Shown: positions 4,019-62,020 of the stretch, piece after piece | Layout of the letters: each line of letters opens with the position of its first letter | How positions within the stretch are numbered: position 1 is the stretch's first letter | Origin: Clostridia bacterium | GTDB lineage: Bacteria; Bacillota; Clostridia; Oscillospirales; Acutalibacteraceae | Reading direction: 5' to 3' | Assembly: GCA_017507805.1 (NCBI GenBank) | Contig: JAFWAC010000008.1 | Location: 21,898-85,897, forward strand | DNA length: 64,000 nucleotides | The notes under the pieces: model-generated | Database searches by the model: none | Told to the model about the DNA's origin: nothing | The model's input: the letters and a program-made list of their open reading frames with translations, nothing else | Position numbers and translations under genes: made by a program

Positions 4019-6964
4019 TTATTCACCCTCCTCAAGAGCGCCCAAAAGACTTCTCAATCTTATTTTGACAGCTCCTAAATTGGTTATTTCGTCAATTTTA
4101 AGCTGAGTATAATATTTGCCAGCATTTTCAAGGACAGAACGCACCTCATCGGTTGTAATAGCATCAACACCGCACCCGAAGGAAACAAGCTGAACGAGCT
4201 GGGTATCAGGATTTTCTGCCGCATAACGCGCGGCGCGGTAAAGTCTTGCGTGATAGGTCCATTGGTTAAGCACTCTTACAGTGAACGGTTTTGCCAAATC
4301 AAAAATGCTGTCCTCGCTGACAACGGCAAAGCCCAAGGAATTGGCAAGGCGATCTATACCGTGGCAAATTTCCGAATCAATATGATAAGGTCTGCCGGCA
4401 AGGATCATTATTCTGTCACCGTTTTGGCGCGCCTTGGCAACAGCGAGTCTGCCCTCCTGCTTTACAGCGGACATATATTTTTCATATTCCTTTGCACCGT
4501 GATTAACCGCCGCCTTGATTTCGGAAAGCGTTATCCCCTGCAAACGGTTAGAAAAGTATCTGTAAAGGCCGCGGGCAAGCTCACGCGTATTATCCACATT
4601 AAGATAAGGATACCAAAACTCAACCTGTTCCAAGGCTTCGGTATTGCCCTTTAAAAGCTCCGAATAATATGCCACAACGGGGCAGTTATAATGATTATCG
4701 GTGTTTTTCTCATCCATATTGTAGGTAAGGCAAGGATAAAATACTGCGTCTACACCCGATTCTATAAGCTCCTCAATATGACCGTGCATCAGCTTTGCAG
4801 GATAGCAGGCTGTGTCGGACGGTATAGAAAACTGTCCCTTTTCATAGGTTCTGCGTGTAGACATTGAGGAAAGCTTCACATTAAAGCCAAGCTTTGTGAA
4901 TATACCGTGCCAGAGTGGCAACAGCTCATACATACCAAGGCTTAACGGCATACCGACAGTGCCGCGTTTGCCCTTTTCTGACTTTAGAGAGGTCAAATAG
5001 TTCCGCTTAAATTCGTAAAGATTGGGCAAGCTTCGGGCATTGTTTTCAATTCCCAATCCTTTTTCGCATTGGTTACCCGAAATAAATTTTTTGCCGTCTC
5101 CAAAGGAATTTACGGTAAGTCGGCAATGATTTGTGCAGCCCTGGCACACAGCCGATTTCGCCGTATGAACGAAATTCTGCAATGCTATGTCATCAACAAG
5201 GGTGCTGTGGGTGCATTTTTTTGAGAAAAGCGCCGCGCCGTATGCCCCCATAAGACCTGCGATTGACGGGCGGATAACATTGTGACCTAATTCCCGTTCA
5301 AAGGCGCGCAGAACGGCGTCATTATAAAAGGTTCCCCCCTGAACCACAATATTTTCGCCCAATTCATCGGGTGAGGTTGCCCTTATTACCTTGTAAATAG
5401 CATTTTTAACAACACTGATAGAAAGTCCCGCAGAAATATCCTCAACGGTGGCGCCGTCCTTTTGTGACTGCTTCACAGCGGAATTCATAAAAACAGTACA
5501 ACGGCTTCCTAAGTTTACAGGAGCAGTGCCCATTAAGCCCTTTTGCGCAAATTCTGCAATTGAATAACCCATTGCTTTTGCAAAGGTTTCCAGAAAAGAG
5601 CCACAGCCGGAGGAGCAAGCCTCGTTCAGCATAATGCTGTCAATCGCGCCGTTTTTTATTTTAAAGCATTTAATATCCTGACCGCCTATATCGAGGATAA
5701 AATCCACATCAGGCTGAAAGAATTTTGCCGCCTTATAATGCGCGATTGTTTCCACGATACCGTAATCCACACAAAAGGCATGCTTTATAAGCTCCTCACC
5801 GTAGCCTGTGACAGCAGAGCCTGCGATTTTAACCTTTTTTCCGCAGAGTGAATAAAGCTTTAAAAGCTGCTCGAGTACAATACCCACAGGGTTACCTTGA
5901 TTTGAAGCATAGTATGTATAAATCAGTTTGTTATCCTCAGAAAGTAAAACCAATTTTGTTGTGGTAGAGCCACAGTCTATTCCAAGATACGCGTTTCCGC
6001 TGTAATCGGAAATTTCACAGTGCTCTACCGTAGCCGATGAATGTCGGGCAACAAATTCATTATATTCACATTCATTTTCAAAAAGAGGCGCCAATCTTTC
6101 GGTGCCGCCCTTAATTTCAGCGGCAGTTTTTACCTTCTTAAGTAAATCGTCAGCCGTGGAAATAAAGGCTTCTTTTTCGGCAAAAAGAGATGCACCGTAA
6201 GCCACGGCAAATCTGCCATAGCTTGGGAAAACGGCATTTTCATCTGTCAGCTTAAGCGTTTTTTTGAAACGCTCACCCAAGCCCTTGCAGTAATACAAAG
6301 GACCGCCCAAGAAAAGCACCTTACCCATAATTTTCTTGCCCTGGGCAAGACCTGCTATCGTTTGATTTACCACCGCTTGATATATGCTTGCGGAAACATC
6401 CTCTTTTCGGGCGCCCTGATTAAGCAAGGGTTGAATGTCGGTTTTAGCAAAAACGCCGCAACGGGAGGCAATCGGATAAATTCTGCCCGCATTAAGGCTT
6501 AACTCATCCAATTCATCAACCGTTATATTAAGCAGGGTTGCCATCTGGTCGATAAAGGCGCCTGTACCGCCGGCACAGCTACCGTTCATTCGCTCGTCCA
6601 TACCGCCGTCAAAAAATATGATTTTGGCATCCTCGCCTCCAAGCTCAATCACACAGGAGGTATCCGGCTCTTTAAGTCTGACAACCTCTCCGGTGGCAAA
6701 AACCTCCTGAACAAAGGGTATACCCGTGGCTTCTGACAAACCCAATCCGGCAGAGCCTGAAATTGCGGCACAAAGCATATTTTCACCTGTAATTTCTCTT
6801 ACAGCCGACAAAAGCTCTGCCGTTTTTTCCCTTACCTGTGAAAAATGCCGTTCATAGCTTTCGAAAATAATTTCTTCTCCGTGGCGCAGGATTACCTTGG
6901 CGGTGGTTGAACCAATATCGATACCGAGAGAATATTCTGCTTTTTGATTATTGCTGTTATACAT
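4019..6964 (-). CDS. Large acyl-CoA dehydratase activase, two BadF/BadG ATPase domains plus DUF2229
   Basis: ATP-driven electron-transfer activase related to HgdC/BadF/BcrD. Two ASKHA-type ATPase domains are visible, starting LGIDIGSTTAK (about residue 14) and LGIDCGSTTTK (about 325). Each carries the cysteine motif that would hold a bridging [4Fe-4S] cluster (NGSCAGGTGAF and NEACSSGCGSF). A C-terminal DUF2229-like half follows, with the cysteine run AVCQGCTNHCRLTV. The ATG at 6964 is preferred because AGGAG lies 7 bases before it; a TTG at 6988 would also keep the frame. The operon partner is at 2703-4013. The role is probably reductive activation of a radical dehydratase encoded elsewhere. 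Confidence 0.85.
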   Translation of the reverse strand: MYNSNNQKAEYSLGIDIGSTTAKVILRHGEEIIFESYERHFSQVREKTAELLSAVREITGENMLCAAISGSAGLGLSEATGIPFVQEVFATGEVVRLKEPDTSCVIELGGEDAKIIFFDGGMDERMNGSCAGGTGAFIDQMATLLNITVDELDELSLNAGRIYPIASRCGVFAKTDIQPLLNQGARKEDVSASIYQAVVNQTIAGLAQGKKIMGKVLFLGGPLYYCKGLGERFKKTLKLTDENAVFPSYGRFAVAYGASLFAEKEAFISTADDLLKKVKTAAEIKGGTERLAPLFENECEYNEFVARHSSATVEHCEISDYSGNAYLGIDCGSTTTKLVLLSEDNKLIYTYYASNQGNPVGIVLEQLLKLYSLCGKKVKIAGSAVTGYGEELIKHAFCVDYGIVETIAHYKAAKFFQPDVDFILDIGGQDIKCFKIKNGAIDSIMLNEACSSGCGSFLETFAKAMGYSIAEFAQKGLMGTAPVNLGSRCTVFMNSAVKQSQKDGATVEDISAGLSISVVKNAIYKVIRATSPDELGENIVVQGGTFYNDAVLRAFERELGHNVIRPSIAGLMGAYGAALFSKKCTHSTLVDDIALQNFVHTAKSAVCQGCTNHCRLTVNSFGDGKKFISGNQCEKGLGIENNARSLPNLYEFKRNYLTSLKSEKGKRGTVGMPLSLGMYELLPLWHGIFTKLGFNVKLSSMSTRRTYEKGQFSIPSDTACYPAKLMHGHIEELIESGVDAVFYPCLTYNMDEKNTDNHYNCPVVAYYSELLKGNTEALEQVEFWYPYLNVDNTRELARGLYRYFSNRLQGITLSEIKAAVNHGAKEYEKYMSAVKQEGRLAVAKARQNGDRIMILAGRPYHIDSEICHGIDRLANSLGFAVVSEDSIFDLAKPFTVRVLNQWTYHARLYRAARYAAENPDTQLVQLVSFGCGVDAITTDEVRSVLENAGKYYTQLKIDEITNLGAVKIRLRSLLGALEEGE

Positions 6965-54162: not shown

Positions 54163-54435
54163 ATGGAAAACAGATTTTACAGTTCCGCCGAAAGATATTC
54201 GAGACCTGATGCGTTTTCATGCCGCAAATGCACGGAGACGCCGGGGGTTAATATACCGAATTGCATTAATGACAATTTCTGTGTATCAACACCGGAAAAT
54301 ATAAACGGCGGCATTTTAGCAATGGCTTTTATGGATATGCAACCGCTTGACAGTGTTTATTCCCCCGAAAGCGCCCTTTCGTGCGGAACACTTTTCCCAA
54401 ACCTTAACAAGCCTTTTTACGGAGGTAGAAGCTGA
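54163..54435 (+). CDS. cotJA: CotJA-type spore coat protein
   Basis: A 90-residue protein matching CotJA by its C-terminal half (GILAMAFMDMQPLDSVY, then SCGTLFPNLNKPFYG) and by its position before cotJB. The N-terminus is cysteine-containing and polar. The ATG at 54163 with AAGGAGAG is chosen over a TTG at 54145 that lies inside the site. Coat proteins of this operon are made in the mother cell and layered onto the forespore. Confidence 0.85.
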   Translation: MENRFYSSAERYSRPDAFSCRKCTETPGVNIPNCINDNFCVSTPENINGGILAMAFMDMQPLDSVYSPESALSCGTLFPNLNKPFYGGRS

Positions 54436-54698
54436 TGAGTAAATCAGAATTGAAACGCAAGATTTTCGAATTGGATTTTGCAATACACGAGCTTGTGCTT
54501 TTTCTCAATTCACATCCGACAAGCAAAAAAGCTATGCAACTTCTTGACGAATACCGCGACAAGCGCCGCGAATGCATTGCCGCTTATGAGGAGCGCTTCG
54601 GCGAATATATAGTTCACGCCGATGATACCCCTGCAAGCGCCTGCTGGAAATGGTTAGAAGGTCCCTGGCCGTGGGAAAATAATTTTATGGAGGGTTAA
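54435..54698 (+). CDS. cotJB: CotJB-type spore coat protein
   Basis: An 87-residue protein of the CotJB family: LDFAIHELVLFLNSHP at 14-29, a YRDKRREC helix, and the tryptophan-rich end WKWLEGPWPWE. The start shares a base with the cotJA stop, and cotJC follows after 3 bases. Confidence 0.9.
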   Translation: MSKSELKRKIFELDFAIHELVLFLNSHPTSKKAMQLLDEYRDKRRECIAAYEERFGEYIVHADDTPASACWKWLEGPWPWENNFMEG

Positions 54699-54701
54699 TT
54701 T

Positions 54702-54803
54702 ATGTGGAAATATGAAAAAAAGCTACAGTATCCGATAAACATTAAAAACCCCAATCCTAAGTATGCCCAAATTATTATCAGTCAATATGGAGGGGCACAC
54801 TGA
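54702..54803 (+). pseudogene. cotJC: cotJC 5' fragment, interrupted after 32 codons
   Basis: Begins at the right place and with a good site (GGAGGG 7 bases before ATG). The 33 residues MWKYEKKLQYPINIKNPNPK and IISQYGGAH match the N-terminus of CotJC, a manganese-catalase-like coat protein of about 190 residues, as far as QYGGA; family members continue DGELAA and so on. Here a stop (TGA) follows His33. No reading frame in the window encodes the remaining 155 or so residues. The intact serine recombinase at 54819 lies directly beyond the break, on the opposite strand. Either an intervening element that could be excised, or a scar of integration, inversion or deletion. Confidence 0.85.
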
Positions 54804-54818
54804 AAAGAGATATACATT

Positions 54819-56246
54819 CTAATAAAAATATATTACAAGTCTGTTTTCTGCCTTGACAAAAACTATCTTTTTTATTACCGCCTGCAATGCCTTATTTTTC
54901 AATGCCTGAGAAGCAATCGGTGAAGCTATTGCTTCTGAAAAGCAAAATGTTCGTTTTTCTTTTCCAAACACCTTTTTTTGAGTAGCTACGCTTTCCTGCG
55001 CCCTTTCAAGCTCTGCAACGCTTTCAAGTATTTTCTTCTTTCCTGCGCTGTACTCCTCCAAGGTGTCAACACCGTTTTGATAGGCAATTTTAAGTCGGTT
55101 AAGCCTTCCCCTCTCCTTTTCGATTAATTTGTTATAATCCAAAGCAAAAGCGTCTGACTTAGGTTCAGGATTACAATCAATCTCAAAGCTGTCATTAATG
55201 CTGAGATTTTTGAGATAATCCAAAACGGCAGAATTGACCTTTTTCAGGGTGATACCGTGGGATACCCTGCACGCGCCTCTGCCATAGCTGTGACACTGTA
55301 AGGACGGAGAGCCTGTGTTTACCCTAATCAATGTTGAGCCACACTCTGAACAACGCATTAAGCCCTTAAGCATCCATTCTGCATTGCTCTCCAAAGGTTT
55401 TCTTTTTACTGCCAGCTCTTTTTTCAGTTCAATTCTTTTTTGCACCTCGTCAAATATATCCTGCCCGACAATGGGTGTATGTATGCCGGGAGAAATCATA
55501 ATATCGGGACTGTTATATTTCCGTTTTGATGCCGCCTTTCCCTTTAAGCTCCAACGGATTTTTCCGGCATAAACAGGATTTCTCAAAATATATTCTATAC
55601 AGCGGCTGTCCGGCGGATTGCCGCGTGTGGTTTTAAGCCCTAAGTCAGCGTATTTTAAAGCTAAAGCTCTGTAGCCTGAGCCTGATAAAAAGTCAAAAAA
55701 TATTCCTTTAATTAATTCGGCATTACTGTCAGGTACATATTTTCCGTTTTCCAAGCTATATCCCATCGGAGGAGGAGAAACCGCCTCTCCCCTGCCTGCC
55801 CGTTCTTTCATTCCCCGCTTTACCTCTTGACTGAGATTGACAAGGTAATATTCATCGGTCCATTCAACTATTCGTTGGATTAAATCTCCGAACGGTCCGT
55901 CAGGCAAAGGCTCGGAAATAGAAATAACCTCAATTCCGTTTCGCCTGAGCATAGATTTAAGTGTAATAGCTTCCTCCTGATTACGGGCAAAACGGCTGAA
56001 TTTCCACACAAGTATTACATCAAAGGGCTTTGGCTTTCTTTTTGAAAGGGCGATAAGCTCAAGGAATTTTTCCCTCTTAACCATACTTTTTCCCGATTTT
56101 CCTCCGTCCTCAATAAAAATACAATTTTCCAAAAGCCCTATCCCGTTTTTATCGGCATATTCTCTTATAACCTTTAGTTGGCTGTCGGGGGAATATTCAA
56201 GCTGGTCATCGGTTGAAACACGGATATATGCGGCGGCTGTAGGCAA
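54819..56246 (-). CDS. Large serine recombinase next to interrupted cotJC
   Basis: Site-specific recombinase of about 475 residues. Catalytic domain: AAYIRVSTDDQ with the nucleophile S11, then VWKFSRFARN (near 83) and the E-helix. Recombinase domain: KGIFFDFLSGSGYRALAL. A zinc ribbon follows (CSECGSTLIRVNTG with later CHSYGRGAC), then a coiled-coil region (about 370-425). All expected parts are intact. TTG at 56246 is preferred with AGAGGG 7 bases upstream; GTG 56255 lies in that site. Ending 16 bases from the cotJC break, it is the likely agent of the interruption, like SpoIVCA for the skin element. Confidence 0.93.
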   Translation of the reverse strand: MPTAAAYIRVSTDDQLEYSPDSQLKVIREYADKNGIGLLENCIFIEDGGKSGKSMVKREKFLELIALSKRKPKPFDVILVWKFSRFARNQEEAITLKSMLRRNGIEVISISEPLPDGPFGDLIQRIVEWTDEYYLVNLSQEVKRGMKERAGRGEAVSPPPMGYSLENGKYVPDSNAELIKGIFFDFLSGSGYRALALKYADLGLKTTRGNPPDSRCIEYILRNPVYAGKIRWSLKGKAASKRKYNSPDIMISPGIHTPIVGQDIFDEVQKRIELKKELAVKRKPLESNAEWMLKGLMRCSECGSTLIRVNTGSPSLQCHSYGRGACRVSHGITLKKVNSAVLDYLKNLSINDSFEIDCNPEPKSDAFALDYNKLIEKERGRLNRLKIAYQNGVDTLEEYSAGKKKILESVAELERAQESVATQKKVFGKEKRTFCFSEAIASPIASQALKNKALQAVIKKIVFVKAENRLVIYFY

Positions 56247-56271
56247 AGCTATCACCCTCTGTCAGGATTTA

Positions 56272-56339: not shown

Positions 56340-57632
56340 TTATTTGAGTTTTTTCTTTTTTGTAATCTTTTTACCGCTTATAAGTGTAAAATAGATAAAC
56401 ATTGCAATGAAAACACAAACACCTATACTGAGCAAGCCCCACCAGAACTTATGAGTAATTCCAATCATATCAAATATAAGCATCAAGCCGCTTAAAAGAA
56501 TGGAAGCACCTTCGATCCATGCCAATACATAAAGAATGAAATTCATTCTCGAATTAGAACGCTCACTCTCTATATTGCCCTTTAATTCAATCAGTCGGTC
56601 AATGAACTGCTGATTTCTGAGATATTCCTCTCTGGCTTGCGCAATACCGAAGGAATTAATAACCTCGTCTGCCTCAATCTGTGAAAACGGGTATTTGAAA
56701 ACATCGGCACTCCAAAATCGCATTGTGTGCCCAAATTCAAGGTAAAGCTCCTCTATCTCGGTATTGGTAATACCGTCACTTTCATCGAGCTCTGCTACCA
56801 CCCTTCTATTTGTACGCAAAACAGCAGTATTTTGGAAAAGCACGATTTCCACAATAAAAAGCTCGGAGGTTTCTCTTTCAAGGCGCTTCTCCAAATCATC
56901 CGAATATTCTTTAAATATAAAAGCAATTACCGAAGGAGATATGTAGGAATCGTAATAATCGTAAATAGCGCGGTTTCTGAGCATTTCTTTGATACGAACA
57001 TCTCTTATATGATAATCTATATGCTCACTTACATAGGTCTCACCCGACAAGAGATAACCCAATTCCGTTTTATCCTCAGGCTCCTTTGAAAGGCAAACCA
57101 CACATTTAGCTTCTCCGCACAGTGAAAGATTATATTTTTCCGACATATACTCAATCACATTTATATATTTGCCGGTTTCCTCATTCAAAATTTCAAGGTG
57201 GTCGGTTGACATCTGGTCAATCAGCTGGGTAGGAATGTAATGATTATCGTGGATAGCCAATGTGACAATATACAAACCGGTTTTCTGATGTGTTGTTATG
57301 ATGATGTGAGCTTGCTCTGTATCAAGAACGGTGCCGTCATAATCATCATCATAGCAAGCGAGGGTGAATTTACCCAAGTTTAATCTTTCAACCTCCCTGA
57401 AAACGGGATTATTGCACTCATAATTAACATGCTCGGTAACTATTTCACAGTACATATCACCGTAATCATTTTGGTCGGTATTTGAAGCCTTGTATTTCTC
57501 CACATCGGCTTTTATTTTGGCAAAAACCTCTTTTTCGATGTTTCTTTTCCTTTTTTTATCACCTTCATCGGCAATGGTCATGGGTATGAAAAAGAAAATA
57601 TCATCTTCATAGGTTTTTAAGTAAGAGTCCAT
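56340..57632 (-). CDS. Membrane protein of unknown function, two C-terminal helices
   Basis: A 430-residue protein with a large acidic soluble part and two membrane helices near the C-terminus (about 363-387 and 397-419), ending in a lysine-rich tail. The arrangement, a long cytoplasmic region with a helix before the membrane hairpin, recalls CorA-like topology, but no GMN motif is seen. It overlaps the acetyltransferase gene by 26 bases and ends at the strong terminator, so it is the last gene of the pot operon. I do not recognise a family. Confidence 0.7.
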   Translation of the reverse strand: MDSYLKTYEDDIFFFIPMTIADEGDKKRKRNIEKEVFAKIKADVEKYKASNTDQNDYGDMYCEIVTEHVNYECNNPVFREVERLNLGKFTLACYDDDYDGTVLDTEQAHIIITTHQKTGLYIVTLAIHDNHYIPTQLIDQMSTDHLEILNEETGKYINVIEYMSEKYNLSLCGEAKCVVCLSKEPEDKTELGYLLSGETYVSEHIDYHIRDVRIKEMLRNRAIYDYYDSYISPSVIAFIFKEYSDDLEKRLERETSELFIVEIVLFQNTAVLRTNRRVVAELDESDGITNTEIEELYLEFGHTMRFWSADVFKYPFSQIEADEVINSFGIAQAREEYLRNQQFIDRLIELKGNIESERSNSRMNFILYVLAWIEGASILLSGLMLIFDMIGITHKFWWGLLSIGVCVFIAMFIYFTLISGKKITKKKKLK

Positions 57633-58242
57633 TTTTAAAAAGCTCCTTTATTTTTTCTCTGCCTACGAAATAATACTTATATCCGCCGTCAACATCCTTC
57701 ACATACTCCGCATAAAAGCGTTTCAGGAAATTAGCACCGCCAGATGATACCGCTGAGCCTGCAATACTGCCTATACAGTAACCGTTGTTCTCCTTTTCGC
57801 GCAAAAAATCCAAAAAGCCGTTACCAAGGAGCTTTATTGTCTCGCCCTTACGGTATTCGGGTATGACCACAAGTGACAGCACAAACAGATTATTGTGTCG
57901 TTCCTTTCGCCAATCCTCCATTTCACAGGGGGCAATATCGTCATCTCGCATCTCGTGATTATCCGGGCTATTCATTTGGGTAAACAGTGCTTCGGATATA
58001 GGGAAAAAGCAAATATAACCCACAAGCAAATCCCCATCGTAAACCAAAAGAAAGGAATCTCTGCACTTATCATAGCGCTTATACATATTTTCAATTACTC
58101 CGCAAAGCTCAGGTGAATAGGTCTGCTTATCTATTTCAAAAGCCTGTTCCAAAAAATCATACGGCGCGTTAAGTCCCGTTTTAATTTCTAACACCTTGAG
58201 GTCATCTCTCTCATTTAAAAAAGGTAAATTAAGATTTAACAT
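57607..58242 (-). CDS. GNAT-like N-acetyltransferase
   Basis: About 211 residues with features of an acetyltransferase: DSFLLVYDGDLLVGYICFFP (strands before the active site) and VLSLVVIPEYRKGETIKLLGNGFL, the acetyl-CoA binding region. The ATG at 58242 overlaps the potD end by 14 bases. Next to a polyamine transporter it might acetylate polyamines, as SpeG or BltD do, but that is inference. Confidence 0.75.
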   Translation of the reverse strand: MLNLNLPFLNERDDLKVLEIKTGLNAPYDFLEQAFEIDKQTYSPELCGVIENMYKRYDKCRDSFLLVYDGDLLVGYICFFPISEALFTQMNSPDNHEMRDDDIAPCEMEDWRKERHNNLFVLSLVVIPEYRKGETIKLLGNGFLDFLREKENNGYCIGSIAGSAVSSGGANFLKRFYAEYVKDVDGGYKYYFVGREKIKELFKNGLLLKNL

Positions 58243-59299
58243 TTTTCCACAATTCCGAATAAAGTTTTTCTGTTTCAGCGCCGAGGTACTTAAGCACGGT
58301 GCATTTTTCAAGTGTACTGTCATCAGGGAAAATGGCACTTTCGGACAGTATTTCACTGTCAAGAGCGTCAATTACCGCCTGATTTGGGGTTGAATAATAG
58401 ATATAATCAAAATTCATAGCCGCAACATCCTCACGGCAAAGAAAATCAAGGAAAAGCTCAGCATAATCCTGATGTACGGCATCCTTTGGAATGGCAAAGC
58501 AATCAAGCCACACGCAGGTGCCGCCCTCGGGCACAGCAAAATCAAGCTTACCGTTATTTTCAAACGCAAGGTATGCTTCGCCGTTATAGATTACCGCCAA
58601 ATCGGCGTTCTCGGACTCCACCTTTACTCTTGCCGCCTCGTCAAGCAAATATGCCTGAACATCAGCCTTTTGTTTTTTGAGAAGCTCGGAAGCCTCTCTT
58701 AATTCCTTTTCGTTTGTGGTATTAGCATCATAGCCCAATACCGAAAGCGCCACGAAAAAAGCATCCCTTTCGCTGTTAGGCATTACAATCTGTCCCTTAT
58801 AAGAACCGTCAAAAAGGCATTTCCAGCTTTTAAGGTCTTCCCTTTTTACGGTCTCGGTATTATAAAGTATGCCCACAGTGCCCCAAAAATGAGGGACTGT
58901 ATATTTTAAATCGGGATCAAAGGCACGCACTGCCTCAAGCTGTTTTTCACTTATATTTGAGAAATTCTCCAAATTGCCAATATTAATCTCAGCCAATCTT
59001 TCCTCGCCGATAAGCTTTTCAAGTATATAATCCGAGGTGCAAATAAGGTCATATTTTGCTGAACCTGACACAAATTTTGCATACATATCCTCGGGTGCCG
59101 CATATTCATCGCAAACGACCTCTATACCGTATTCCTGCTCAAACAAATCATAAACCTGCGGGTCGATATAATCTCCATAATTAAACAGATATAATCTTTC
59201 CTTAGCGGAACAGCCCGTAAGCGAAAGCAGTGTCAGTGCCAATATACTTACAACACAGATAACAGAAAGCAAAGACTTAAGATTAAATATTTTTTTCAT
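58229..59299 (-). CDS. potD: Spermidine/putrescine ABC transporter substrate-binding lipoprotein
   Basis: Extracellular polyamine-binding lipoprotein of 356 residues. A lipobox LTGC places the lipidated cysteine at C30. The mature part begins with the PotD-like LYLFNYGDYIDPQVYDLFEQ and contains a KYDLICTSDYILEKL segment. In the potABCD order. Confidence 0.93.
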   Translation of the reverse strand: MKKIFNLKSLLSVICVVSILALTLLSLTGCSAKERLYLFNYGDYIDPQVYDLFEQEYGIEVVCDEYAAPEDMYAKFVSGSAKYDLICTSDYILEKLIGEERLAEINIGNLENFSNISEKQLEAVRAFDPDLKYTVPHFWGTVGILYNTETVKREDLKSWKCLFDGSYKGQIVMPNSERDAFFVALSVLGYDANTTNEKELREASELLKKQKADVQAYLLDEAARVKVESENADLAVIYNGEAYLAFENNGKLDFAVPEGGTCVWLDCFAIPKDAVHQDYAELFLDFLCREDVAAMNFDYIYYSTPNQAVIDALDSEILSESAIFPDDSTLEKCTVLKYLGAETEKLYSELWKNVKS

Positions 59300-59314
59300 T
59301 TCCCAATTCCTTTT

Positions 59315-60133
59315 CTAATAATTATTCTTTTGTGCCTTAGCACGGTTGTTTCCTGAAGTGGCGGAGCGCATATTAACAATCTGCATCACAAGGATAAGAA
59401 ACAGCACCGCAATAAAGGTAAGTGCCGCAAGGGCATAATACTCGGGTAAAATACCCCTTATACGATTAGTGTAAATCAAGGTGGAAAGGGTGTTAATCCC
59501 CTGTCCCTTAGTAAAATATGTTATTGTGAAATCGTCAAGCGAAATTGTGAGGGCAAGCAAGAAGCCTGTCAACACTCCGGGGAAAATATCCGGTAGAGTG
59601 ACCTTAAAAAATGCCTTTATCGGAGAAGCACCCAGGTCGAGAGCCGCCTCATAAACGCTTTTGTCAAACTGAGAAAGCTTTGGAAACACATTCAGCACAA
59701 CATACGGAAGTATCAGTGTAATGTGTGAAGCAATCAATGTTACATTATTCATTCTGCCCACAATGGCAGAGAAAAACAGCATGAGCGAAATTCCGGTTAC
59801 GATGTCAGCATTTAAAAGCGGTATATTCGCAACCGTTGTAACGGTTTTCTGCAGCTTTTTTTTCATAGCAAGAAGTCCGATGCAGGCAAGAGTTCCTATT
59901 ATTGTCGCCAATGCCGCCGAGGCAAAGCCCAGCAAAACGGTTGTCAAAAGGGCTTCCATTATGATCTCGTTATTAAACAGTGCTTCATATTTCACGAAGG
60001 AAAAGCCGCCCCACTCGTAGGATGACCTTGAACCGTTGAAGGATAGCACAATCATAAGTGCCACAGGCATATAAAGAAGTGCGAAAATAAGAGCTATATA
60101 CACCCCGCGTAAAAAAGCAGATAATCTTTTCAC
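59315..60133 (-). CDS. potC: Spermidine/putrescine ABC transporter permease PotC
   Basis: Inner membrane permease of 272 residues with six helices and the binding-protein-dependent transport motif EAALDLGASPIKAFFKVTLPDIFPG (shown in part, near 165-189), which contacts PotA. Overlaps potB by 4 bases. Confidence 0.93.
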   Translation of the reverse strand: MKRLSAFLRGVYIALIFALLYMPVALMIVLSFNGSRSSYEWGGFSFVKYEALFNNEIIMEALLTTVLLGFASAALATIIGTLACIGLLAMKKKLQKTVTTVANIPLLNADIVTGISLMLFFSAIVGRMNNVTLIASHITLILPYVVLNVFPKLSQFDKSVYEAALDLGASPIKAFFKVTLPDIFPGVLTGFLLALTISLDDFTITYFTKGQGINTLSTLIYTNRIRGILPEYYALAALTFIAVLFLILVMQIVNMRSATSGNNRAKAQKNNY

Positions 60134-60957
60134 GGCAGAATGGCACCCCCTTCCGCCTCGGCATCTCCGCCCGAAACCAAAGAGCTTATAACAACAAAAG
60201 CCATAAGAATAAGGGCTAATCCCGAGCCTTGATAATAATGTCCTTTTGTGAAGCTCATCTCAACTATATTACCGACAAGCATTATTTTTCCGCCGCCGAG
60301 CATTTCGGCAATAGCAAAATCGGAAATGGCAGGAACAAAAACCATGGTAATTCCGCTTATAACTCCGGGGAATGACAGCGGAAAGGTTATTTTAAAGAAG
60401 GTTCTTATTGCACCTGCGCCCAAATCCTTGGAGGCGTTGATTAAATCCCCGTCTATTCGGGAAACAGTGTTATAAATCGGCAAAAGCATAAACGGAAAAT
60501 AATCATAAACCATGCCGATAAGAATTGCGCCGAAGGTATTGGCAATGTGAATTTTCTCAAAGCCCAGCGCCGAAAGCAGATAGTTTATAATTCCGTTATC
60601 CTCTAAAATTACATTTATTGCTACCATCTGAAGCATGAAATTCATCCACATGGGCAGTATAAAAAGAAAAATAAAAACCTTTTGCTTTTTAAGTCCAAGC
60701 TTTGCAAGACAGATTGCCAGCGGATATGCCAAAATCAAGGCAATCAAAGTTGCCGCCGCAGCAAGCAAAAGGGTTAATCCGAATGCCTTGATATTTGCAG
60801 TATCTGTAACTGCGCCGACAATATTTTCAAAGGTGAAGCCACCCTGCAAATTGGTGAATGCATAATAAAAAATAGTAAGCAACGGCAATATAATAAAACC
60901 GGCTATCCAGACAAGATAAGGTCCTGAAAGCCAGAGGCTTTTTTTATTCGTCAACAC
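60130..60957 (-). CDS. potB: Spermidine/putrescine ABC transporter permease PotB
   Basis: Partner permease of 275 residues with six helices and the EAA-like loop [20 protein letters not shown] (near 177-196). The C-terminus is an acidic tail ([13 protein letters not shown]). Overlaps potA by 14 bases and potC by 4, so tightly coupled. Confidence 0.93.
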
Positions 60958-62020
60958 TTGCAGCCTCCTCGTCCTCAGAGCGCGGCTTGTGCATTATCTG
61001 AATATTTTCAGGCTCTACATATATCCCCACCTCAGAGCCGACCGGCTCCATCTTGGTGCTGTGAACAAGCCATTCGTAGCCCCGTGCCATAACCTCCATT
61101 TCATAGTGAACACCCTTGAAAATAAGGGAGGTTACCGTACCCTTCATATCGCTCTTTTCAGGTGATGTGAGAATAACATCCTCAGGACGGATAACCACAT
61201 CGACCGGCTTATCGTTTCCGAAGCCTGTATCAACGCAGGGGAAATTTACACCGAAAATGTTTACAAGACAGTCCTTTACCATTATACCGTCTATAATATT
61301 GCTGTCACCGATAAAGTCGGCAACAAAGGCGTTTTTAGGCTCGTTATATATATCCTCCGGCGTGCCTATCTGCTGAATGATACCCTGATTCATAACTGCA
61401 ATCGTGTCAGAAAGAGTTAAAGCCTCCTCCTGGTCATGGGTAACATAAATAAAGGTTATGCCGGCTTGCTTGTGTATATTTTTAAGCTCATACTGCATAT
61501 CCTGACGCATTTTAAAATCAAGTGCGCCAAGCGGCTCGTCCAGCAAAAGCACACGCGGCTTGTTTACAAGCGCTCTCGCAATGGCAATGCGTTGCTGTTG
61601 ACCGCCCGAAAGGCTTACCACAGAACGGTTTTCATATCCCGAAAGACCTACCATTGAAAGCATTTCCCCAACACTCTTTTTTATCTCACTTTCAGGTGTG
61701 TTTTTTATTCTGAGACCGAAAGCGATATTATCAAAAACATTCATATGAGGGAAAAGCGCATATTTTTGGAAAACGGTGTTAAGCTGTCTTTTATTTGGCG
61801 GCAGGTTGGTAATGTCCTTACCGTCAAAAATAAGCTTTCCCGTATCAGGCGTGACAAAACCGCCTATAATTCTAAGTGTTGTGGTTTTACCGCACCCGGA
61901 CGGACCAAGCAAGGTTATGAACTCATTATCAAGAATATAGAGATCAAGATTTTTTAATACCTGTTCTGTTCCAAAGGATTTAGTAACTCCCACCAGCTCT
62001 ATCAGTTTTTCGTTTTTCAT
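60944..62020 (-). CDS. potA: Spermidine/putrescine ABC transporter ATPase
   Basis: ATPase of 358 residues: Walker [11 protein letters not shown] (39-48), signature [12 protein letters not shown], Walker [13 protein letters not shown], and a C-terminal TOBE domain starting [10 protein letters not shown]. The ATG at 62020 lies 12 bases after AAGGAG, which is long; an out-of-frame ATG at 62028 has the ideal distance and opens a 15-codon frame over the start. It may tune translation. First gene of the pot operon. Confidence 0.94.

Follow-up and report, generated by a model that had tools for sequence, protein, structure and literature searches.

The spore coat gene cotJC is interrupted at recurrent sites by serine recombinase elements and is probably spliced at the DNA level during spore formation

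At the cotJ locus of this Clostridia bacterium, cotJC starts directly behind cotJA and cotJB and then breaks off beside the gene of a large serine recombinase. Where is the rest of the gene, and can a coat protein still be made from it? The window, that is, the whole stretch of 64 kb analysed here, is the final part of contig C23 in a draft assembly of 2.34 Mb (36 contigs, 87.6% complete). Reading of the letters alone had suggested that cotJA and cotJB are intact and that cotJC is broken right beside a full-length antisense serine recombinase. Both cotJA and cotJB indeed match their own Pfam families above the cut-off, and profile matches and coordinates agree on the position of the break (Table 1). 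The 5' piece of cotJC matches PF05067 with 31 bits (cut-off 27) over profile positions 1-32; the family sequence runs to Gly31 and is followed by two foreign residues (AH) and a stop codon. The distance from this stop to the 3' end of the antisense recombinase gene, first given as 16 bases, was recounted as 15 bp. Sequence composition over 40-64 kb of the window revealed no clear step at 54.8 kb. The break is more than chance, as it recurs in other genomes together with related recombinases. By comparison with these relatives, the putative attL consists of the cotJC half as far as the core, followed by the attP half-arm of the element.

Table 1. Features of the cotJ locus and its right flank in the window.
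Feature	Position	Strand	Basis or remark
cotJA, intact	54163..54435	+	Pfam CotJA, 53.1 bits, above cut-off
cotJB, intact	54435..54698	+	Pfam CotJB, 74 bits, above cut-off
5' part of cotJC, 33 codons plus a TGA stop at 54801-54803	54702..54803	+	PF05067
Putative attL, limits approximate	54775..54840	+	comparison with 13 attL/attR pairs of relatives
Inferred site-A crossover core, GG at the start of the Gly31 codon	54792..54793	+	
478-aa large serine recombinase, its 3' end next to the break	54819..56255	-	Resolvase, Recombinase, Zn_ribbon_recom
Genes right of the recombinase	56340..62020	-	same block and order in genome G010, contig C16
DUF2442/HTH protein near the contig end	63420..63851	-	matches PHROG family named excisionase

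The remainder of cotJC is absent from the window, as had been noticed, and the genome-wide search proposed for it located two further pieces in the same genome, both on contig C5. The middle of the gene lies at C5:3-413, the very start of that contig (PF05067 search, 129.7 bits), and the C-terminus, detected with a C-terminal peptide, lies at C5:13731-13829. Within the 13.34 kb between them lie the genes of a second antisense serine recombinase of 503 aa, of another, small serine recombinase and of a phage-type primase. Because this second recombinase-bearing element separates the middle from the C-terminus, cotJC is present here as three pieces with two attachment sites, one at Gly31 (site A) and one at RFGEA (site D). 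The two edges of the C5 element at site D have CGCTTYGGTGAWGCGA in common, and joining there restores the cotJC frame, the core being common to both junctions; for this genome, such a short shared core is read at site D only. The original prediction depended on there being no second intact cotJC, and only pieces were found in this 87.6% complete assembly. Contig C5 starts ~23 nt past the site-A core, as placed by the family alignment, and the right junction of site A falls in the contig gap. A pattern search of this genome for the site-A right half detected none at a contig with a cotJC piece, the pattern giving 21 matches with two to three mismatches versus 15 for the backward control. The central claim, a coat gene interrupted by a serine recombinase element in the manner of other sporulation genes, thus stands for the interruption, the kept remainder and the fitting core, but the right junction of site A in this genome is lost in the gap.

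Among 36 genomes of the same genus, 24 match PF05067 across at least positions 1-177. By our own reading, CotJC is plainly uninterrupted in 16 of the 36, which bears out the expectation of intact relatives. Of the other eight among the 24, five carry an alternative tail at site D, two belong to a longer type of paralogue and one ends at position 177. Further genomes of the genus contain cotJC in pieces. At the level of the order, the PF05067 family was matched in 341 of 396 genomes. We re-searched 131 genomes without a clear full-length match (picked by eye, best E above 1e-45) and found cotJC split at recurrent sites in 122 of them; the pieces tile the whole protein in 95 of the 122, and at least one piece is missing from the assembly in the other 27. 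At least 122 of the 341 family-bearing genomes of the order have an interrupted cotJC. Nine of the 131 were set aside, seven with weak or odd matches (G387, G297, G218, G383, G270, G409 and G160), one with a full-length match (G144) and one with three adjacent broken pieces resembling a decayed copy (G151). This genome and five fragment-only genomes (G037, G048, G049, G052 and G058) stand outside the 122. The sites in the 122 genomes, taken from the end positions of profile matches, are B in 62, C in 48 and A in 35, with two sites in 19 genomes and three in 2, some of the two-site calls coming from partial sets. Site D is outside this count; when 12 genomes were searched with a C-terminal query, 10 proved to have a separate cotJC end. 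All 50 split-cotJC genomes that were checked for SpoIVA, this one among them, have it as a single uninterrupted gene, implying that sporulation genes remain and that assembly does not break genes this often.

The original prediction had supposed one further case of an interrupted sporulation gene. We instead found four main sites within cotJC (A, B, C and D), up to four elements in one gene, and splits outside the order too. The richest case is five cotJC pieces lying in order on one contig (G240:C1:205516-288984), indicating four elements, at sites A, B, C and D. A class-level search matched the family in 126 of 194 genomes, of which 12, including this genome, belong to the order; no match approaching full length was found in three genomes outside the order that consist of a single contig (G473, G541 and G574). 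The gene is split at site A by 3.2 kb in Anaeromassilibacillus senegalensis mt9, lies in four pieces on the complete chromosome of Blautia parvula NBRC 113351, and is split at site B in Defluviitalea phaphyphila Alg1, which has no full-length family match. The match coordinates of A. senegalensis equal those of G122, a genome from the family of the window, which places the window in the family of A. senegalensis (Acutalibacteraceae in GTDB).

To characterise the junctions, we compared 48 left and right pairs in profile coordinates. The mean identical run at the junction was 6.6 nt in register versus 2.1 nt in 24 shifted registers, and register zero was the single best of the 25 in 30 pairs and best or tied in 34. 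At site A, the GG of codon 31 is the sole run of at least two bases identical left and right in all 13 pairs, two of which (G001 and G026) have one right half in common; all 13 likewise retain the first G of codon 30 and the C at the second position of codon 32. This agrees with the two-base crossover core that had been proposed within GGAGGGGCA. The corresponding bases are the GG of codon 62 at site B, kept on the left and right in 23 and 22 of 23 pairs (G355 being left out of these counts), and the CA of codon 135 at site C, kept in 10 and 9 of 10 pairs. The joined pieces form an open frame without internal stop in 41 of 41 sets, although the joining script chose the family-best crossover, which favours an open frame at the junction, not elsewhere; the set of this genome covers site D only, and some sets end in the site-D tail.

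The recombinases follow the sites. In a tree of 45 element recombinases they group by site across host families (A 15/15, C 10/10 and B 18/19) and require three site changes versus a shuffled mean of 21.1, with long-branch warnings for the site-B recombinase of G355, the site-D row and others. The window recombinase falls inside the site-A clade (support 98/99), its nearest relative being one of G026 (60%). We rejected assignment of the G355 site-B element to clade B, as its recombinase sits elsewhere in the tree and it has a neighbouring junction position and a different core. Thirty-nine elements, 2.3-16.7 kb long, are contained in a single contig. A recombinase of 400 aa or more is retained in 37 of them and is located within 450 bp of an element end in 35; elements G298B and G414B have no full recombinase. 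Small conserved ORFs (48-78 aa) lie just ahead of the recombinase in some site-B and site-C elements, for example in G153, G298, G031 and G073. Four of them gave no Pfam match above the cut-off. These ORFs are candidates for a directionality factor; none has been identified as such in the elements or assigned in the window.

We consider it likely that cotJC serves as an attB attachment gene for phages and phage-derived elements and is rejoined by excision in the mother cell, so that the gene would probably be spliced at the DNA level during spore formation. Each integrated element would bring its own large serine recombinase into cotJC. At sporulation, this enzyme, probably together with a directionality factor, would recombine attL with attR in the mother cell, removing the element and making the cotJC frame whole again, as skin does for sigK. 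Since the mother cell dies later, the elements would stay in the germ line, while the spore would have a need for CotJC. The breaks, the kept pieces, the site-following recombinase clades and the attP-like repeats of viral relatives described below are all read from sequence.

Elements of this kind have been described in other sporulation genes. In the accessible parts of the sources, sigK, spsM, spoVFB and gerE are listed as interrupted genes, with yabG added (PMC10747680), and the intervening elements are skin (sigK), SPbeta (spsM), vfbin (spoVFB), gin (gerE) and yin (yabG) (PMC5595907, PMC10747680, PMC4191935, PMC5025042). As far as those parts go, the likeness is close, in that a sporulation gene is divided by an element encoding a serine recombinase and its two halves persist with a short core in common; excision restores the gene there, whereas for cotJC we infer excision from sequence. 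The described cases that we found are single elements in single genes. By contrast, the target here is cotJC, a gene of ~200 codons with four main sites, recombinase clades that follow the site and up to four elements at once, split in many genomes (at least the 122 of 341 of one order). The heterocyst elements of cyanobacteria (nifD, fdxN, hupL; XisF) offer a parallel in which several elements are excised in a terminally differentiated cell, rebuilding genes. They concern other organisms and other genes, and the window recombinase, at 89.3 bits (E 2.6e-25) against the NCBIfam XisF cut-off of 375, is not a member of that family.

Two phage systems come close in other respects. Phage phi027 of C. 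difficile R20291 integrates beside a CotJC-like catalase gene (PMC11222575); in the accessible part of that paper, this 678-bp ORF downstream of attR is not described as split, and the reported attP is by eye unlike sites A-D. Helper-embedded satellites lie inside prophage late genes and delay expression of the gene concerned, according to the part of the source available (PMC10111431), but they interrupt a prophage gene, whereas the gene interrupted here is a spore-coat gene. The main text of a further paper (PMC10083194), in its accessible part, contains no word starting with spore or catalase. Among the literature matches listed, mainly openly accessible journal papers, there was no description of cotJC as an interrupted target. 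The cotJC splits give a natural series of attB, attP and recombinase sets, and may account for automatic annotations in which cotJC is missing or truncated. They also make testable why phages favour sporulation genes, namely that such a gene is needed only in a cell bound to die.

At site A of this genome, the flank may be a large element or a rearrangement reaching past 64000. To the right of the recombinase, the block of Table 1 encodes a 430-aa and a 254-aa protein without Pfam match, then transport genes that are potD-, potC-, potB- and potA-like, names that we read from domains. Since the counterpart of this block in G010 is ordinary DNA on contig C16, away from the cotJ locus, a rearrangement must be taken seriously: rather than a small flanking element, a chromosomal rearrangement would have separated the halves after insertion. 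We put its chances a little below even. Separated halves in G206, G137 and G391 speak for it as well. Against it stand the contig ends, at 64000 for C23 and at the break for C5, between which the halves may lie at any distance; cargo can be carried by elements, and misassembly is possible. On this reading the halves could be rejoined only by a chromosome-scale inversion or deletion, which is compatible with excision as the best explanation for cotJC at large.

In the three genomes just named, the halves lie on opposite strands ~108 kb apart (G206, loci L172/L171), far apart on one 2.69-Mb contig (G137, L173/L174), and in reversed order 11 kb apart (G391, L141), with no recombinase in the 16 kb read in G391. 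These arrangements could be rearranged chromosomes or misassembly. They count against excision in that such halves are not rejoinable by excision of a small element. Split genomes with a second full-length family member, as seen in A. senegalensis and B. parvula, count against it too, as do the 27 split genomes that lack a piece and the decayed-looking copy of G151. A bolder version of the excision reading is that the mother cell puts cotJC together from as many as five DNA pieces, using up to four independent phage-derived recombinases, each tied to its own conserved codons, so that several DNA splicing events would be needed to build the coat, and that in some genomes, possibly this one, where the halves lie very far apart, this proceeds via a chromosome inversion or a split into two circles, tolerable only as the cell dies. 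We hold this version to be rather doubtful.

Plain insertional loss is a still less probable reading. It takes cotJC as a handy conserved phage target and supposes that lysogens lose CotJC, the pieces looking intact since each lysogeny is recent and the phages are soon lost again. The viral relatives of the recombinases bear on it. Viral contigs scanned with the window recombinase alone gave no match; a scan by alignment of each recombinase clade found relatives, those of clade A being common in IMG/VR, and the best 80 loci were kept. In 62 of these best 80 site-A-like viral loci, the sequence continues for 150 bp or more beyond the recombinase. Of the 62, 18 abut a cotJC piece (as does one further locus outside the 62, with under 150 bp) and 44 do not, and in one of the latter such a piece follows at a distance of 1.7 kb. 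An inverted repeat, defined as arms at least 9/10 complementary within 130 bp after the recombinase, was detected in 37 of the 44, versus 4.3 expected from shuffles. In 28 of the 44 the repeat is attP-like, with a GGNGG or CCNCC centre like that of site A, versus 0.2 expected; a repeat with such a cotJC-like centre is what would be predicted for the attP of a free or circular form. The integrase of a complete circular caudovirus (PQ006094.1) is 42% identical. That 44 of 62 loci lie outside cotJC, 28 of them with the attP-like repeat, speaks for insertional loss, as do the varying presence of elements within genera and the sometimes distant relationship between recombinases of splits within one genus. 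Insertional loss accounts poorly, on the other hand, for the shortest elements, since 16 of the 17 below 6 kb, a length insufficient for a tailed-phage genome, keep their recombinase, for the lack of an internal stop in all 41 joined sets, and for a gene that retains every piece despite as many as four insertions.

In cotJC, two species that are both split at site B differ by a dS of 1.32 and a dN of 0.021, and the twice-split G031 differs from the intact G022 by a dS of 0.77 and a dN of 0.005; six close intact pairs have dN/dS values of 0.012-0.030. The low dN/dS of close split pairs fits a maintained function of cotJC. It may also reflect recent insertions, since the tree separates the recombinases of G049 and G153 widely, with terminal branches of 0.39 and 0.33. 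Where dS was under 2, dN/dS had a median of 0.147 for split-split (70/780 pairs), 0.192 for split-intact (23/640) and 0.022 for intact-intact (8/120), G073 being left out for a poor crossover chosen by the script; as the split pairs mostly join distant taxa close to saturation, their medians are not comparable with those of intact pairs. As such, these medians do not favour maintained function of split cotJC.

That the break at 54.8 kb is an assembly artefact is scarcely credible: the assembly is a fragmented draft and C5 begins at most ~23 nt from the break, but like left junctions with related, same-placed recombinases occur in other genomes, and cotJC splits are also found on single contigs of near-complete genomes.

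Returning to excision in the mother cell, we searched for sporulation promoters. Sigma-K-like sites, scored with a consensus motif, lie near cotJA in 32 of 133 loci versus 4.5 expected, and the full sigma-E motif revealed no enrichment there (1 of 133 versus 1.0 expected). Sigma-E-like -10 motifs precede 8 of 45 recombinases versus 2.0 expected, a weak signal; no sigma-E or sigma-K promoter was found before the window recombinase.

Several further observations concern the assemblies around split genes. In G026 (L045, L044) and G001 (L043), close clade-A recombinases stand at the left junction on one contig and at the right junction on another, and G001 has a second cotJC copy uncut at site A; this pattern could reflect mixed strains or two element orientations. 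Contigs end in or beside cotJC attachment sites at L058, L074, L122, L052, L033 (start of C5) and in G266 (contigs C26 and C30), which may point to a sample containing both excised and integrated forms, while at L061 and L094 contigs end elsewhere within cotJC. A shared alternative tail of ~16 residues ends cotJC at site D in L383 (G010), L025 (G015), L022 (G003), L043 (G001) and L044 (G026); a separate C-terminal piece was not found in G010 or G003 and is present in G015 and G001. Finally, at L051 (G004) an intact cotJC is followed by a second cotJC-like ORF with an internal deletion (5425-5667).
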